Positions 28,406 to 37,393 of a stretch of DNA of 37,498 nucleotides are shown here, piece by piece (the first letter of the stretch is position 1; every line of letters begins with the position of its first letter). The DNA comes from Archaeoglobi archaeon JdFR-42 (GTDB taxonomy: Archaea > Halobacteriota > Archaeoglobi > Archaeoglobales > JdFR-42). The position numbers and the translations under genes are program-made. The stretch covers positions 20,200 to 57,697 of the forward strand of contig MTND01000004.1 of assembly GCA_002010305.1 (NCBI GenBank). Direction: 5' to 3'. The notes beneath the pieces were generated by a model. It ran no database searches. It was not told where the DNA came from and saw nothing but the letters and a program-made list of their open reading frames with translations.

Positions 28406-29661
28406 GTAGCAATCTCCTCTTTTTTCCTTTCTGTGCTTGGAACTGTATTAACCCGAACTACAAAATTCCCCTCTACTCCGTAATCCACGATTCTCTTTCT
28501 TGCATGCTCCACCATTCCACCACTGGTAAAGATAAGACAGTTATGGCCTGTAAGAGCTTTTAAGAGAGAATTATTTATCACATTGGAGGAAAAATCGGGT
28601 GTGATTCCCACTTCTTTCAGCAATGCTTTTGCTTTCGTACCCATGGCCCCTATGAAGTGAACATCCATTTCAGAAATTATCTTTCCAATTTCCTGGATCT
28701 CGATACCGTCCACATCGCATACTATGATCTCTCCGGGATTTATACCATCTTTTGAGACTTCCACCACCACATAGCCTGTATCTTTGTGAATGATCCTCCC
28801 CATTTCTTTCCATGGTTGTTTGTAGTATCTTATGGTGGGAATTTCAATGGCGTTCACGAGATCCAAGACATGTCTAGGTACACGACCTGGTTTTGCAAAA
28901 CATCGCTCTCTCAATTCTTTATATATTTGAAGCACTTTGGGTGGCTTGAGTCCCGCATGCTTTAATAACCGGGTATCTCCGAAAACATCCTCAGGCAATC
29001 CATTTCCCAATATCTCTCCTTCGTGCATCACCCAAACTTCATCACCCCATTCATAGGCTATTTCCACATCATGAGTTGATACAACTATGGTTTTTCCTTC
29101 GTACTGCAATTCATTTAGCAAATCTAAGAGCTCGTCTGCACTTCTTGGATCAAGATTGGCCGTGGGTTCATCCAATATTATCACTTCCGGATCCATAGCA
29201 AGGATTCCTGCTATTGCAACTCGCTTTTTCTGGCCAAAACTCAACTGGTGTGGTGGCCTATCAGCCAAGTGTTCAAGCCCAACTGCCAGTAATGCATTCC
29301 TTACTCGCTCCTCAACCTCTTCTTCAGATAAACCAAGATTTAGAGGACCAAAGGCCACATCTTGGCGAACTGTAGGGGCGAGAATCTGATCATCTGGATT
29401 CTGGAATACTAACCCTACTGCCTGGCGTACCCATCTCAAAGACTGCCTGTCATAGGATAAGGGTTTTCCATTAAAAAACACTTGGCCAGCAGATGGTTTC
29501 AACATGCCATTGAAATGTAGCATAAGGGTAGTTTTTCCTGCTCCATTATGTCCAGCTATTATAACTTTCTTTCCTTTTGTTATCTGTATGCTCACTCCTC
29601 TGAGGGCTTTTTCTTCATTTCCATAACTAAATTCAACATCTTTCGTTTCGATGATATTCAT
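28402..29661 (-). CDS. cbiO: Cobalt ECF transporter ATPase CbiO with C-terminal extension
   Basis: 419 residues from ATG 29661 (TGATG overlap with cbiQ, GAGGTG upstream). Residues 1-240 are the ABC ATPase: Walker A GHNGAGKTT (37-45), Q-loop FQNPDDQ, signature LSFGQKKR (about 140-147), Walker B VIILDEPTANLD (about 160-171), switch His in STHD. Usual CbiO proteins end near 270-280 residues; here a further domain of about 140 residues follows, with GYVVVEVSKDGINPGE, MDVHFIGAMGTKAKALLKE and NCLIFTSGGMVEHARKR. I do not recognise that domain; it may regulate cobalt uptake. Confidence 0.93.
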   Translation of the reverse strand: MNIIETKDVEFSYGNEEKALRGVSIQITKGKKVIIAGHNGAGKTTLMLHFNGMLKPSAGQVFFNGKPLSYDRQSLRWVRQAVGLVFQNPDDQILAPTVRQDVAFGPLNLGLSEEEVEERVRNALLAVGLEHLADRPPHQLSFGQKKRVAIAGILAMDPEVIILDEPTANLDPRSADELLDLLNELQYEGKTIVVSTHDVEIAYEWGDEVWVMHEGEILGNGLPEDVFGDTRLLKHAGLKPPKVLQIYKELRERCFAKPGRVPRHVLDLVNAIEIPTIRYYKQPWKEMGRIIHKDTGYVVVEVSKDGINPGEIIVCDVDGIEIQEIGKIISEMDVHFIGAMGTKAKALLKEVGITPDFSSNVINNSLLKALTGHNCLIFTSGGMVEHARKRIVDYGVEGNFVVRVNTVPSTERKKEEIAT

Positions 29662-30431
29662 CAGATCCACCTCATCAAATAATATAGTCCAATCAGCCCC
29701 ATTTCAAAAAGGAAGACAACGAATAGCTCCCAAACACTAAAAAGGGGTTTATTAAGAGACGGGTATCTCCCAGAATAACATCTGGCATCCATAGCAGCCT
29801 GAATGTTCTCACCTCGTTTCCACGTTCTTATAAAAAGCAAACCTCCGATCATAGCAAAGGATCGTAAATGGGCTCTAAAGCCAGCCATTCCAAGTCTCGA
29901 TGATGCAGCGATAACCATCCGTTCCGCCTCTTCTATGGATACGAAGATAAATCGATAAATCATAAGGGATATTTCAACAATGAATTCAGGCAAACCAATA
30001 TTTCTAAGGCCATTGAATAATTCAGCCATAGGAGTAGTAAGAACAAGGAAATACAGACAGGATATACCTCCCATCGCTCTAGCCATGGTTTGTATGGCTG
30101 TCACTATTCCTTCTTTATAGACATTAATTCTAATGGGACCTACAATGATTGTATATAATTCTGTAGGTCCAATGAGAAAAATCAGCACAGCAGTGGCCGG
30201 AACAAGAAAAGAGAAGGGAATAAAAATCAGTTTTTTGTAAACTCTTACTGGAATTTTTGAATAAGAAGTTATGAGGATTGACATAATGATAAACACGGCA
30301 AAAGAAAAAGAGGGTAAGTCAAAGATCATTAACATAATCAATGTTCCTATTGAGAGTATTATTTTGGTCCAAGTGCTCAGCATATAGGCCGGGCTTTTCA
30401 ATGCATAGTGCTCCAGATTAAGAAATTCCAT
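29661..30431 (-). CDS. cbiQ: Cobalt ECF transporter transmembrane subunit CbiQ
   Basis: 256-residue T-component with five to six hydrophobic helices and the T-family coupling motif near the end, AAMDARCYSGR (the usual Ala-Arg-Gly varied to Ala-Arg-Cys), which contacts the ATPase. Together with CbiM, CbiN and CbiO it imports cobalt. ATG 30431 lies eight bases after the cbiN stop; cbiO follows in a TGATG overlap. Confidence 0.93.
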   Translation of the reverse strand: MEFLNLEHYALKSPAYMLSTWTKIILSIGTLIMLMIFDLPSFSFAVFIIMSILITSYSKIPVRVYKKLIFIPFSFLVPATAVLIFLIGPTELYTIIVGPIRINVYKEGIVTAIQTMARAMGGISCLYFLVLTTPMAELFNGLRNIGLPEFIVEISLMIYRFIFVSIEEAERMVIAASSRLGMAGFRAHLRSFAMIGGLLFIRTWKRGENIQAAMDARCYSGRYPSLNKPLFSVWELFVVFLFEMGLIGLYYLMRWI

Positions 30432-30439
30432 GTTCCCCC

Positions 30440-30733
30440 CTACACCTTCTTCGCTTCTTCAATTGCACCTTTCCTACCTTTATAATATCCCAGAAAATAT
30501 CCAATCACAAGAGACCCTATAGCTGCTTGTAAAGCAAACAGGAAAGTTTCGATCTCTCCGCTTGGCGGTTCCCAAATCGGATTAAACCAAGGTACATAAT
30601 CACCACCGGTTAACTCATGGACCTTATCCTGCATTATAGCATCTCCCCCTGCCCATTCTGCTGCTGAGGTTACAGATACCGTCAGCAAGAACCCTACAAA
30701 AACCAGAATCCAAAGCATTCTCCCTCTCCTCAT
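30440..30733 (-). CDS. cbiN: Cobalt transporter accessory subunit CbiN
   Basis: 97 residues: an N-terminal hydrophobic helix (7-24), an extracytoplasmic loop with PWFNPIWEPPSGEIETFLF, and a second helix (about 64-82) followed by a basic tail. That is the complete two-helix layout of CbiN, needed for metal loading of CbiM. ATG 30733 overlaps the cbiM stop as ATGA. Confidence 0.93.
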   Translation of the reverse strand: MRRGRMLWILVFVGFLLTVSVTSAAEWAGGDAIMQDKVHELTGGDYVPWFNPIWEPPSGEIETFLFALQAAIGSLVIGYFLGYYKGRKGAIEEAKKV

Positions 30734-31404
30734 GCTTTCTCACCCCTGGCAAGAATCTTCAGGTCTGACAGGAAATCTGGTTTTACTTGCATCAAGTACT
30801 TGAACAGCAATACAGAGGCAATGCCTTCGATAATAGCCAATGGTAACTGAGTCACCGCAAAAATGGCCATAAATACCTTAAATGATCCTAACACTCCTCC
30901 TACAGAAGCAGGAAACGCTAGAGCCATTTGGGCAGACGTGACCACATAAGTCGTATAATCTGCGACAGTCGACACAATGAATACAGTAAATAAGATATTA
31001 ACTCCTGCTTTTCTAAGAGTCTTATAAACAATCCATCCTACTAGGGGGCCAATAATTCCCATAGAGGTGACATTAGCCCCAAAAGTAGTGATACCCCCAT
31101 GAGCAAGAAGTAACGCCTGATACAAGAGTACAATCGAGGACAGTACTGATGTCACAGCCGGACCAAAAAAAACAACAGCAAGTCCCGTTCCAGTAGGATG
31201 AGAACAGCTTCCTGTAACTGAAGGTATTTTTAGAGAAGATAAGACGAATACAAATGCACCAGCCAGAGCAAGATATGGTTTTAATTCCGGCCTCTTGTCG
31301 ACCAGTTTTTTAAGCATAAAAACCCCATAAGCCAGAATCACCACTGCAACCATCCACCATATCTCCCACCATGGATGGGGTAGGAATCCCTCTGCGATAT
31401 GCAA
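30730..31404 (-). CDS. cbiM: Cobalt-binding ECF substrate component CbiM
   Basis: 224 residues. The metal site of CbiM needs a free N-terminus followed by His2; the frame starting at TTG 31404 reads Met-His-Ile-Ala-Glu-Gly-Phe-Leu-Pro, exactly the conserved start, whereas the TTG at 31422 would bury it. GGTGGTGG lies five bases before 31404. Other landmarks: SVTGSCSHPTGTGLAVVFFGP (about 60) and LLLAHGGITTFGANVTSMG. About six hydrophobic helices. A TTTAAATAAA element near 31452-31463 could begin the operon transcript. Confidence 0.94.
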   Translation of the reverse strand: MHIAEGFLPHPWWEIWWMVAVVILAYGVFMLKKLVDKRPELKPYLALAGAFVFVLSSLKIPSVTGSCSHPTGTGLAVVFFGPAVTSVLSSIVLLYQALLLAHGGITTFGANVTSMGIIGPLVGWIVYKTLRKAGVNILFTVFIVSTVADYTTYVVTSAQMALAFPASVGGVLGSFKVFMAIFAVTQLPLAIIEGIASVLLFKYLMQVKPDFLSDLKILARGEKA

Positions 31405-31521
31405 TATACCACCACCATTCAATATAATTTTACTTTAGTAAGAAAAAATTGATTTTATTTAAAGATTTTCGTTCTACCATTATTTTTCATTAAGTCTTTT
31501 TACACATATAGATGTGAAAAT

Positions 31522-32265
31522 TTATAAATTCATTTCAAGAACGTCCCGAATACCCTCAAAATTGTATCTGTTTGGAATAACAGCCTTTATATCAAATTTT
31601 TCAAGAGTTTTCTGAGTTGGAGGACCTATAGCAATAGTCAAGAGGGAATTAAGTGCCTTAATAACCTCTCCCTCTTTTCCCATTTTTTTTGATAGATTCA
31701 TAAAACTTTGAACCATCATACTGCTTGAAAAAACCACCGCCCATACTTCTCTTTTAATAATCTTCCGGATTAATTTTTCCTGGTCTTTTCCGTGAACAGG
31801 CCCTATGGTGTATAGAACAATTTCCTCCAGATGGCAGTAGTCTCTCAACCTGTAAAGAACCGGATCTCCATAATTGCTCCTCAACAAAAAAACATTCTTA
31901 CCAGATATTCTTTCTTTGATTTCTTCAAACAAATCTTTTGAAGAATATTTCTCAGGTACATATACGTCCAATCCAGCATCTATGAGGACGGAAGCAGTTT
32001 TAGGCCCAATGGCAATTATCTCAAGATTCTTAAGGAGATCACTCTCAACATGCTTTAGCACAATCTTTGCACCAGTTCTGCTTGTGAAAATGCCCACATC
32101 AACTTTTTTGGATTCGAGTGACATCACGAATTTTTCCAGTTCTCCTGATGGATTCTCTTTTAATTCGATAAAAGGGGCTGCAATAACCCTAAATCCACTT
32201 TTTTCAAGAATTTTTCTTGCATCTTCAATGTACTGGGCCGGTCTCATTATGGCAACTACAGGCAT
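31522..32265 (-). CDS. hemD: Uroporphyrinogen-III synthase
   Basis: 247 residues from ATG 32265; an upstream in-frame ATG at 32340 would overlap the promoter. Two-domain HemD fold: AIMRPAQYIEDARKILEKSG at the start, VGIFTSRTGAKIVLKH, EIIAIGPKTASVLIDAGLDV and LLTIAIGPPTQKTLEKF. It cyclises hydroxymethylbilane to uroporphyrinogen III, precursor of sirohydrochlorin and thus of cobalamin, haem and F430. It lies 117 bases upstream of cbiM on the same strand and is probably read together with the cobalt and corrin genes. Confidence 0.88.
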   Translation of the reverse strand: MPVVAIMRPAQYIEDARKILEKSGFRVIAAPFIELKENPSGELEKFVMSLESKKVDVGIFTSRTGAKIVLKHVESDLLKNLEIIAIGPKTASVLIDAGLDVYVPEKYSSKDLFEEIKERISGKNVFLLRSNYGDPVLYRLRDYCHLEEIVLYTIGPVHGKDQEKLIRKIIKREVWAVVFSSSMMVQSFMNLSKKMGKEGEVIKALNSLLTIAIGPPTQKTLEKFDIKAVIPNRYNFEGIRDVLEMNL

Positions 32266-32320
32266 ATAGATCGGGTTCTTACCCTCCCTACATAATCCTT
32301 TTGATGGCATACATAACAGA

Positions 32321-32330
32321 CATATAGTTT
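32321..32330. promoter_or_regulatory. Bidirectional TATA element between hemD and pyrC
   Basis: CATATAGTTT at 32321-32330 lies 24 bases before the pyrC ATG (32349) and reads AAACTATATG on the other strand, giving a hemD start near 32300. pyrC would be leaderless, hemD would have a short leader. Confidence 0.4.
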
Positions 32331-32348
32331 GAAAACCCATAACAAGCG

Positions 32349-33572
32349 ATGTTTGATGTCGTTATAAAGAACGCTAACATTTTCAGAAAAAACCAGTATA
32401 TACAGGCAGAAATTGGAATTATAGGAGAAAAGATAGCTAAAATTGGGAAAACACTGTCTGGAGAGGTGAAAATCAATGCTAAAGGGACCATCGTACTTCC
32501 AGCTGGAATTGATATTCACGTCCATTTCAGAGACTGGAAAGAGAAAGAGAAAGAGACATGGGTAACAGGCTCGATGGCGGCCCTGAGGGGTGGGATAGGA
32601 GTGGTTGTGGATCAGCCTAACACTTTACCTCTCGTTGACAGTATGAATCGGATGGACGAACGGATTGAACTGGCAGAAAAAAAATCTCTAGTTGATTTTC
32701 GTATCAATCTGGGACTCACCAAGAAGAATTTCCATTTACTGAAAGAGACTGAGAACAAAATGCTAAACACTGCCATCGGTGAGGTGTTCCTCCAGCATTC
32801 AAATCCAAATCTACAGATTGACTATAGTATGTTGAAAACGATAAGAGAGAAAGTTAGAGACATTATAACTGTTCATGCAGAGGACCCCAACTTAATACAG
32901 GATAACGAAGGACCATATCACATAGTAAGACCTCCAGAAGCTGAAATCCAAGCGGTAAAAAAATGTCTTCATCTAGGTGTTTTCCATTTCTGTCATATAT
33001 CTACTTTTAACGCTATGAGCACGGTTATTCAGTCTCCTTCAACGTTTGAGGTAACACCACACCACTTATTTCTGGATAATAAAGTTGCCATAACTCCAGA
33101 ATTCAATGTCAATCCTCCGTTAAGGGATAGTACTAATAGAGATAAGATCTTAAAGAATTTCCTAAACATTCCTGTTATCGCATCTGATCATGCACCCCAT
33201 ACTATTGAAGAGAAAAAAGAGGGGGCTCCAGGATTCCCCAATGTCGAATTAACCTATCCTCTTCTGATGTTTATGGTCAAAGAAAAGATATTAACGCTTA
33301 AGGACGTGGTGGACAAGCTGGCGAGAAATCCAGCCAGACTCTTTGGATTTGACGACTATGGATCGATACAACCTGGCAAATACGCAAGTCTTGCCATATT
33401 CAATTTTAAAAAAGTCCAAAAAATTTCAGGGGAAAAGTTGATATCAAAATGCAAATTCACTCCATTCGAGGGCTTTAAAGCAATATTTCCAGAATTTGTG
33501 TTGATACGGGGAAAGATGGCATATTCTGATAATGAATTCTTTATAAAACCAGGTTACGGGAAAGAGGCATGA
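32349..33572 (+). CDS. pyrC: Dihydroorotase
   Basis: 407-residue amidohydrolase of pyrimidine synthesis, closing carbamoyl-aspartate to dihydroorotate. Seen: metal motif DIHVHFRD (55-62), VVVDQPNTLP (substrate loop), ITVHAEDPNL, FHFCHISTF, and VIASDHAPHTIEEK with the catalytic Asp, then GAPGFPNVEL. C-terminal beta domain ends GYGKEA. The carboxylated-lysine position of class I enzymes is replaced by an altered DWKEKEKETW segment. Divergent from hemD, probable leaderless start. No other pyr gene is in the window. Confidence 0.95.
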   Translation: MFDVVIKNANIFRKNQYIQAEIGIIGEKIAKIGKTLSGEVKINAKGTIVLPAGIDIHVHFRDWKEKEKETWVTGSMAALRGGIGVVVDQPNTLPLVDSMNRMDERIELAEKKSLVDFRINLGLTKKNFHLLKETENKMLNTAIGEVFLQHSNPNLQIDYSMLKTIREKVRDIITVHAEDPNLIQDNEGPYHIVRPPEAEIQAVKKCLHLGVFHFCHISTFNAMSTVIQSPSTFEVTPHHLFLDNKVAITPEFNVNPPLRDSTNRDKILKNFLNIPVIASDHAPHTIEEKKEGAPGFPNVELTYPLLMFMVKEKILTLKDVVDKLARNPARLFGFDDYGSIQPGKYASLAIFNFKKVQKISGEKLISKCKFTPFEGFKAIFPEFVLIRGKMAYSDNEFFIKPGYGKEA

Positions 33573-33587
33573 TATTCCCGAGGATAA

Positions 33588-33600
33588 ATTATTTAAAAGA
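33588..33600 (+). promoter_or_regulatory. Promoter of the structured RNA
   Basis: ATTATTTAAAAGA at 33588-33600, just after the pyrC stop, is a good archaeal TATA box; 25 bases on is 33617-33620, where the first base-paired helix of the RNA candidate begins. Confidence 0.5.
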
Positions 33601-33618
33601 TCGTGTCAGTGTATTATA

Positions 33619-33896
33619 GGCCCCTGACGAGGGGGGGCAGAGTGCTCATATGAGCCCCATGAAGCCTACCGCATGAAAGGGGCTACATAAACCATACCCG
33701 ATAGGTCCCCGGACGAGAATGAGCCTGAAGGCAGTCACTGAATCTGGGACAACCCGGGTATGGAACACCCCGGCAAAGGTCAGTCGTCAGAGGTTGCTCA
33801 TGCAATATTGTCAACATACGTTGACAATTTGCAAACCATTTGGTTTGCAATACGATGAAAGACGATGTTAATGCCGGGGAACAAATCTGCTTTTTT
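33619..33896 (+). ncRNA. Structured RNA candidate of unknown family, about 275 nt
   Basis: GC-rich island with a promoter before it and a T-run (33891-33896) after it. Exact helices: 33619-33625 with 33678-33684 (one G-U), inside it GGGGC 33634-33638 with GCCCC 33654-33658; CCATACCCG 33692-33700 with CGGGTATGG 33755-33763, inside it GTCCC 33705-33709 with GGGAC 33746-33750 and a GCC-TGAA-GGC hairpin at 33723-33732; CCCCGGC 33768-33774 with GCCGGGG 33873-33879, enclosing 33783-33788 with 33861-33866 and two abutting 9-pair hairpins, 33807-33828 (loop ATAC) and 33829-33850 (loop ATTT). It lacks the SRP RNA and RNase P core motifs I would expect. No protein fits. Confidence 0.6.
33891..33896 (+). 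terminator. T-tract terminator of the structured RNA
   Basis: Run of six T at 33891-33896 shortly after the closing helix (33873-33879). Archaeal RNA polymerase stops at such T-runs; it marks the probable 3' end. Confidence 0.5.
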
Positions 33897-34214
33897 AAAT
33901 TCAATTTAGACATAAGTTACTAGGAAAAAGCTACTTTTAGAAATCCTTGGTGTTGTATAGCTACCAATAGATAATTTTTAGCTATTTCCACAGATGGAGT
34001 TCTTAACTACAACTGGATTTTATACCCTACACTTTCACAAATTTTATGCTTTTATCTATTATACAGAAATAACGTTCTTTAAAATCAATTTAAAAATGAA
34101 CAAAAACAACACAGAAAAACCAATATTGATTATAAAGAAGTAAGTTCATGAAATACTCGTTACATGCAATCGAGAAAAAGACTTTCTTAGATTTATATAC
34201 AAGGATAATCTACT
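33897..34214. other. AT-rich intergenic stretch
   Basis: No gene seen. The only clear signal is a TATA box, TTTATATA at 34192-34199, for the protease gene that follows. Confidence 0.4.
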
Positions 34215-37183: not shown

Positions 37184-37393
37184 AAAAAGTAAGATGCGCC
37201 GACCGGGATTTGAACCCGGGTCGAGGGCTTGGAAGGCCCTAGTCCCTCTTTTTTTGGAGTCTTCTTTACATTCCTCATTCAATTTAAACTCTTCTTTTAG
37301 CTTCTCTTCCAAAAATCTGCTTAAATTAATCTTATTCTCCTTGGCAAGCCTTAATACATTTTTATCCAAATATAAAGATGTTCTTACCTTCAT
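37178..37393 (-). CDS. Ribbon-helix-helix antitoxin-like protein, C-terminus altered by a tRNA fragment
   Basis: 71 residues. Residues 1-36 (VRTSLYLDKNVLRLAKENKI then LSRFLEEKLKEEF) are a CcdA/VapB-type ribbon-helix-helix antitoxin. ATG 37393 has GGTGA upstream and a strong TATA box (minus CTTTATATAAA, about 37411-37421). From about residue 50 the frame reads through the 3' half of a tRNA-Gly gene, so the last 20 residues are translated tRNA sequence. No toxin gene follows; the original C-terminus or the partner was probably lost or lies elsewhere. Confidence 0.65.
   Translation of the reverse strand: MKVRTSLYLDKNVLRLAKENKINLSRFLEEKLKEEFKLNEECKEDSKKRGTRAFQALDPGSNPGRRILLFV
37195..37245 (-). 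tRNA. tRNA-Gly(UCC) 3' fragment
   Basis: Minus strand, 5' to 3': a GGAC matching the 3' strand of a D stem (37242-37245), anticodon stem-loop AGGGC-CTTCCAA-GCCCT (37224-37240, anticodon TCC), variable CGAC, T arm CCGGG-TTCAAAT-CCCGG (37203-37219), acceptor strand TCGGCGC (37196-37202) and discriminator A (37195). The matching 5' acceptor GCGCCGA and the D loop are missing: upstream is the antitoxin-like coding sequence. No CCA encoded. A 3' tRNA fragment is the usual scar of integration at a tRNA gene. Confidence 0.75.

Follow-up and report, generated by a model that had tools for sequence, protein, structure and literature searches.

Among the described archaeal guide RNAs, Pf7 with its stems I-III and Pab40 with its hairpins Pab40.1-Pab40.3 consist of three tandem H/ACA hairpins (PMC4652768, PMC2584109), and transcription in P. 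abyssi starts exactly where the first H/ACA motif begins (PMC4652768). In archaeal H/ACA RNAs, the ACA (or ANA) box lies 14-16 nt from the pocket-closing pair, and the GA stem comprises 8-11 base pairs (PMC4652768). The target of Pab40.1 is P. abyssi U2588, as determined in vitro (PMC6138745; PMC4652768). Pab40.3 targets P. abyssi U2016, and its A. fulgidus relative Af4.3 targets L1970 (PMC4652768); P. abyssi U2016 corresponds to position 1956 in Haloarcula and 1915 in E. coli (PMC2584109). E. coli U2586 is equivalent to the Haloarcula pseudouridine 2621 discussed in PMC2584109. The same arrangement of three tandem hairpins is present in the 37,498-nt stretch of Archaeoglobi archaeon JdFR-42 DNA analysed here (the window). 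The RNA encoded there is a divergent new HgcG/Pab40/Afu4 H/ACA guide, previously unlabelled; guides of this family direct the modification of as many as three rRNA sites, and their biology is established in relatives.

33615..33896, + strand: HgcG/Pab40/Afu4-type H/ACA guide RNA gene (RF00064 and nhmmer; putative transcript ends)

The original prediction had described a compact multi-helix RNA of unknown family, possibly a new archaeal RNA class, and had named a cmscan search against Rfam as the check, with a strong hit to a known family as the outcome that would contradict it. A permissive cmscan of positions 33300-34200 indeed returned such a family: RF00064, HgcG (Pab40), matched 33562-33888 (E = 1.2e-13, 53.8 bits), and the alignment covered positions 1-276 of the 276 in the model, i.e., its full length. 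The score is below the curated cut-off of 77 bits, which is a reporting threshold and not a biological feature. For this reason the default Rfam scan of the whole window came back empty at the gathering level, and the RNA would therefore pass as unnamed. HgcG was the sole match at E ≤ 5 in 33300-34200, without any match to RNase P RNA, SRP RNA, intron or riboswitch models. Elsewhere in the window, a weak tmRNA match (37203-37220, 14.2 bits) was taken as chance.

Across the order Archaeoglobales, 51 of 57 genomes carry the HgcG family, with scores above the cut-off in 43, including the only other genome of the same taxonomic family (G001, 88.9 bits). Sub-threshold scores (49-76 bits) were also obtained for seven further full-length matches across the order, and the window is at the weak-scoring end of the order-wide list. 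An nhmmer profile built from 49 relatives, with the window excluded, recovered the RNA with E = 6e-29 as a match split in two at an insertion. The following shorter, weak second matches to RF00064 (22-34 bits) were seen in five genomes and are perhaps other H/ACA RNAs.

G004:C1:686136-686339: weak second RF00064 match
G036:C214:4884-5053: weak second RF00064 match
G002:C18:94127-94304: weak second RF00064 match
G055:C11:17963-18182: weak second RF00064 match
G022:C1:438959-439091: weak second RF00064 match

We are highly confident that the locus encodes one RNA of about 280 nt, an HgcG/Pab40/Pf7/Afu4 guide with three tandem H/ACA modules, the third of which carries a repeat insertion in its apical loop. 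The helices listed in the original prediction were found again at their positions on re-reading the sequence, and fall into these modules:

33619..33687, + strand: module 1; lower stem 33619-33625/33678-33684, upper stem 33632-33638/33664-33670
33640-33642 and 33660-33662, + strand: module 1 kink-turn GAG and UGA; ACA box 33685-33687
33692..33767, + strand: module 2; lower stem 33692-33700/33755-33763, upper stem 33708-33713/33743-33748
33715-33717 and 33739-33741, + strand: module 2 kink-turn GAG and UGA; ACA box 33765-33767
33768..33883, + strand: module 3; lower stem 33768-33775/33872-33879, upper stem 33784-33788/33861-33865
33790-33792 and 33856-33858, + strand: module 3 kink-turn GAG and UGA; ACA box 33881-33883

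The lower stems are formed by GGCCCCT (33619-33625) and AGGGGCT (33678-33684) in module 1, CCATACCCG (33692-33700) and CGGGTATGG (33755-33763) in module 2, and CCCCGGCA (33768-33775) and TGCCGGGG (33872-33879) in module 3. Each module of the window has the GAG and UGA kink-turn elements. The ACA box lies 14 nt from the pocket in module 1, 16 nt in module 2 and 15 nt in module 3, all within the published range, and the GA stems, whose 5' strands span 10, 9 and 8 positions, agree with the 8-11 bp rule. The fold of 33600-33920 has an energy of −117.9 kcal/mol, compared with −87.2 ± 4.8 kcal/mol for shuffled sequences (z = −6.35), and most of this excess is due to module 3 together with the inserted hairpins. 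The z-scores of the individual modules are −2.2 for module 1, −3.8 for module 2, and −8.0 for module 3 (−5.4 without the insert).

We aligned 50 sequences, the window and 49 relatives, all with three tandem modules, and ran the pair test on the window's own structure (47 pairs). Double changes were found in 36 of the 47 pairs, versus 24.6 in shuffles and 13-23 when the partners were slid; 84.7% of the alignment cells were paired, versus 33-54% after sliding. None of 500 shuffles reached the observed covariation on any measure. Homologues with compensatory changes, proposed as a further check of the original prediction, are present, and the helices covary far beyond the controls: helices 1-3 in module 1, 4-6 in module 2, and 7-8 in module 3. 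The lower stem of module 3 (helix 7) scored low (61.5% paired) because the alignment slips there; RNAalifold, using its own register, recovered this helix with strong covariation. The kink-turn core was found in 48, 49 and 48 of the 50 sequences for modules 1, 2 and 3, respectively, and the ACA box of module 2 in all 50.

The surroundings of the RNA were as had been predicted: a GC-rich island (GC 0.56 at the centre) in AT-rich sequence (0.24-0.40 in most of the flanks), with a TATA-like element 22-31 nt upstream of the first helix and a run of T at the end.

33589..33598, + strand: TATA box-like promoter element TTATTTAAAA (aligned upstream regions)
33891..33896, + strand: run of six T, the likely transcription end (sequence)

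In the 49 aligned upstream regions, the A/T fraction at −29 to −25 was 0.92-1.00. The T-run was not called as an intrinsic terminator in a simple scan, which was not designed for archaea. Scans for sigma-70 promoters and intrinsic terminators gave nothing relevant to an archaeon. The conserved promoter position, the covariation and the occurrence across the order support the proposal of a structured, independently transcribed housekeeping RNA gene.

The genome encodes Nop10 and a TruB_N/Cbf5 protein. L7Ae would bind the kink-turn in each module, and Cbf5-Nop10-Gar1 would bind the pocket and the ACA box. Each pocket would pair with 23S rRNA on either side of one uridine, which Cbf5 would convert to pseudouridine. 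Module 1 is predicted to target the equivalent of P. abyssi U2588, module 2 that of E. coli U2586 or U2555, and module 3 that of E. coli U1915.

33626..33632, + strand: module 1 5' guide strand (target scan; CGAGG at 33628-33632 pairs with 23S CCUCG)
33671..33677, + strand: module 1 3' guide strand (target scan; changes together with its target in G008)

Since the organism's own 23S rRNA was not found in the assembly, pairing was assessed on that of a relative: the pockets were scanned against the A. fulgidus 23S rRNA using a simple pairing score, with 200 shuffled pockets as controls. The organism's own 16S rRNA (G000:C25:24383-25253) is cut near a contig end. The module 1 site GGGCUUGC[U]ACCUCGAU ranked first for 40 of the 50 guides and for 6 of the 200 shuffled pockets, and the module 3 site GGGGUAAC[U]AUGACC for 42 of the 50 guides and for 1 of the 200 shuffled pockets. 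For modules 1 and 3 of the window itself, the expected sites were top-ranked. The two sites are 572 nt apart in the A. fulgidus 23S rRNA, which equals 2588 − 2016. The target of module 2 is ambiguous, as its pocket fits two 23S sites, E. coli U2586 and U2555; judged from the parts of module 2 that are most conserved (AACCC in all sequences and GGUC in all except the G008 group), U2586 would be slightly favoured. The E. coli site numbers 2496 and 2555 were obtained by counting from conserved motifs.

Guide and target also vary together in relatives, and this concerted change helps to back the published target assignments. In G008, the 23S rRNA has GUUUGC for GCUUGC and the guide has GCGAAC for GCRAGC, both having changed together. 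In G003 (23S L104; L032), a G replaces the module 1 target U and the match of the module 1 3' guide is lost. Against the consensus target, the module 1 3' guide of the window shows one U-U mismatch (GCAUG), also seen in G038, G015 and G007.

The two abutting 9-pair hairpins of the original prediction, also confirmed on re-reading, belong to an insertion that was missing from all 49 aligned relatives. The term lineage-specific therefore applies to these hairpins only and not to the RNA as a whole.

33801..33845 (or equivalent register), + strand: 45-nt insert with two abutting 9-bp hairpins, within the module 3 apical loop
33807-33815/33820-33828 and 33829-33837/33842-33850, + strand: the two abutting hairpins
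C3, C6, C8, C13, C17, C18, C19, C21 and C30: contigs with repeat copies in the organism's own genome

The insertion is flanked on both sides by TGCAATA or, equally, by TA. Based on BLAST hits, the genome contains about 30 partial matches to it elsewhere, and in the 17 hairpin copies that we read the repeat unit is approximately TA-TTGTCAACATANGTTGACAA-NTTGTAAAGCAATACTTTACAA-TA, i.e., two abutting hairpins that occur singly or chained in tandem. The repeat was not seen in 39 relatives at the sensitivity of that search, among viral contigs the inserted hairpin matched one unrelated single palindrome, and the literature searched yielded no report of such elements within RNA genes. Two to three chained copies (G000:C17:30661-30751, L100) lie just downstream of cbf5 (ORF L100:1333-2316), which encodes the enzyme of the H/ACA RNP; this is probably a coincidence.

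When one copy of the flanking repeat is removed, the apical hairpin of module 3 takes the short form that is normal for the family, and the insert makes no difference to how module 3 folds. The insert is located beyond the kink-turn, on the far side from the pocket, and the guide should therefore stay usable. In the favoured explanation, a dispersed repeat has inserted in this lineage and extends the distal stem of module 3, leaving the pocket untouched. On balance we favour the view that a dispersed, probably mobile double-hairpin repeat sits in the loop of the guide RNA and is transcribed within a working guide, the loop past the kink-turn being a free insertion site.

The insertion of a dispersed repeat and the low RF00064 score would also fit a degraded HgcG, in which the repeat inactivated module 3 and a functional copy exists elsewhere or was lost. 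We consider this improbable: the search of the organism's own genome, which is 99.6% complete, revealed a single HgcG locus (E 6.9e-14), none of the three kink-turns or ACA boxes is disrupted, the fold of module 3 is unaffected by the insert, and the lower stems are perfect, their differences from relatives being compensatory. An unrelated new archaeal RNA class, as originally suggested, could be read from the score below the curated cut-off and the lack of a gathering-level match in the window. The significant full-length HgcG match, the orthology that runs without a break to relatives scoring above the cut-off, and the three H/ACA modules with published targets speak against it, and this candidate is ruled out by the match and the relatives, leaving it a negligible probability.

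Finally, since the RNA lies between two same-strand genes, an amidohydrolase upstream and an Rce1-like protease downstream, it could be a regulatory leader or 3' element of these neighbours. Yet other genes flank the RNA in G001 and A. fulgidus, and a TATA position upstream of the RNA itself is conserved; in the absence of synteny we rejected a leader or regulator role as extremely unlikely. Elsewhere in the window, the minus strand carries the cobalt transport genes CbiM, CbiN and CbiQ and a uroporphyrinogen-III synthase gene (29661-32340).

Identification of the locus as HgcG removes a candidate new RNA class, and shows that the Rfam cut-off misses genuine HgcG genes in Archaeoglobales. The 50-sequence alignment, with three modules and three kink-turns, could improve RF00064. 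The only unusual feature is the lineage-specific repeat in an outer loop, and the local novelty is small; it provides a natural example of a repeat within a structured housekeeping RNA.

Short dispersed palindromic repeats include REP-like and MITE-like elements and the Rickettsia palindromic elements. As these are generally described, the repeat found here shares with them a short palindrome, many copies and the ability to enter genes, whereas it differs in consisting of two abutting hairpins, bounded by TA, that can be chained in tandem. With HgcG/Pab40/Pf7/Afu4, the RNA of the window has in common three modules in the same order, kink-turns, ACA boxes, pockets matching 23S rRNA and a match to the full length of the model. 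It differs from them by the score below the cut-off, the 45-nt double-hairpin insertion and one mismatch in the 3' guide of module 1.
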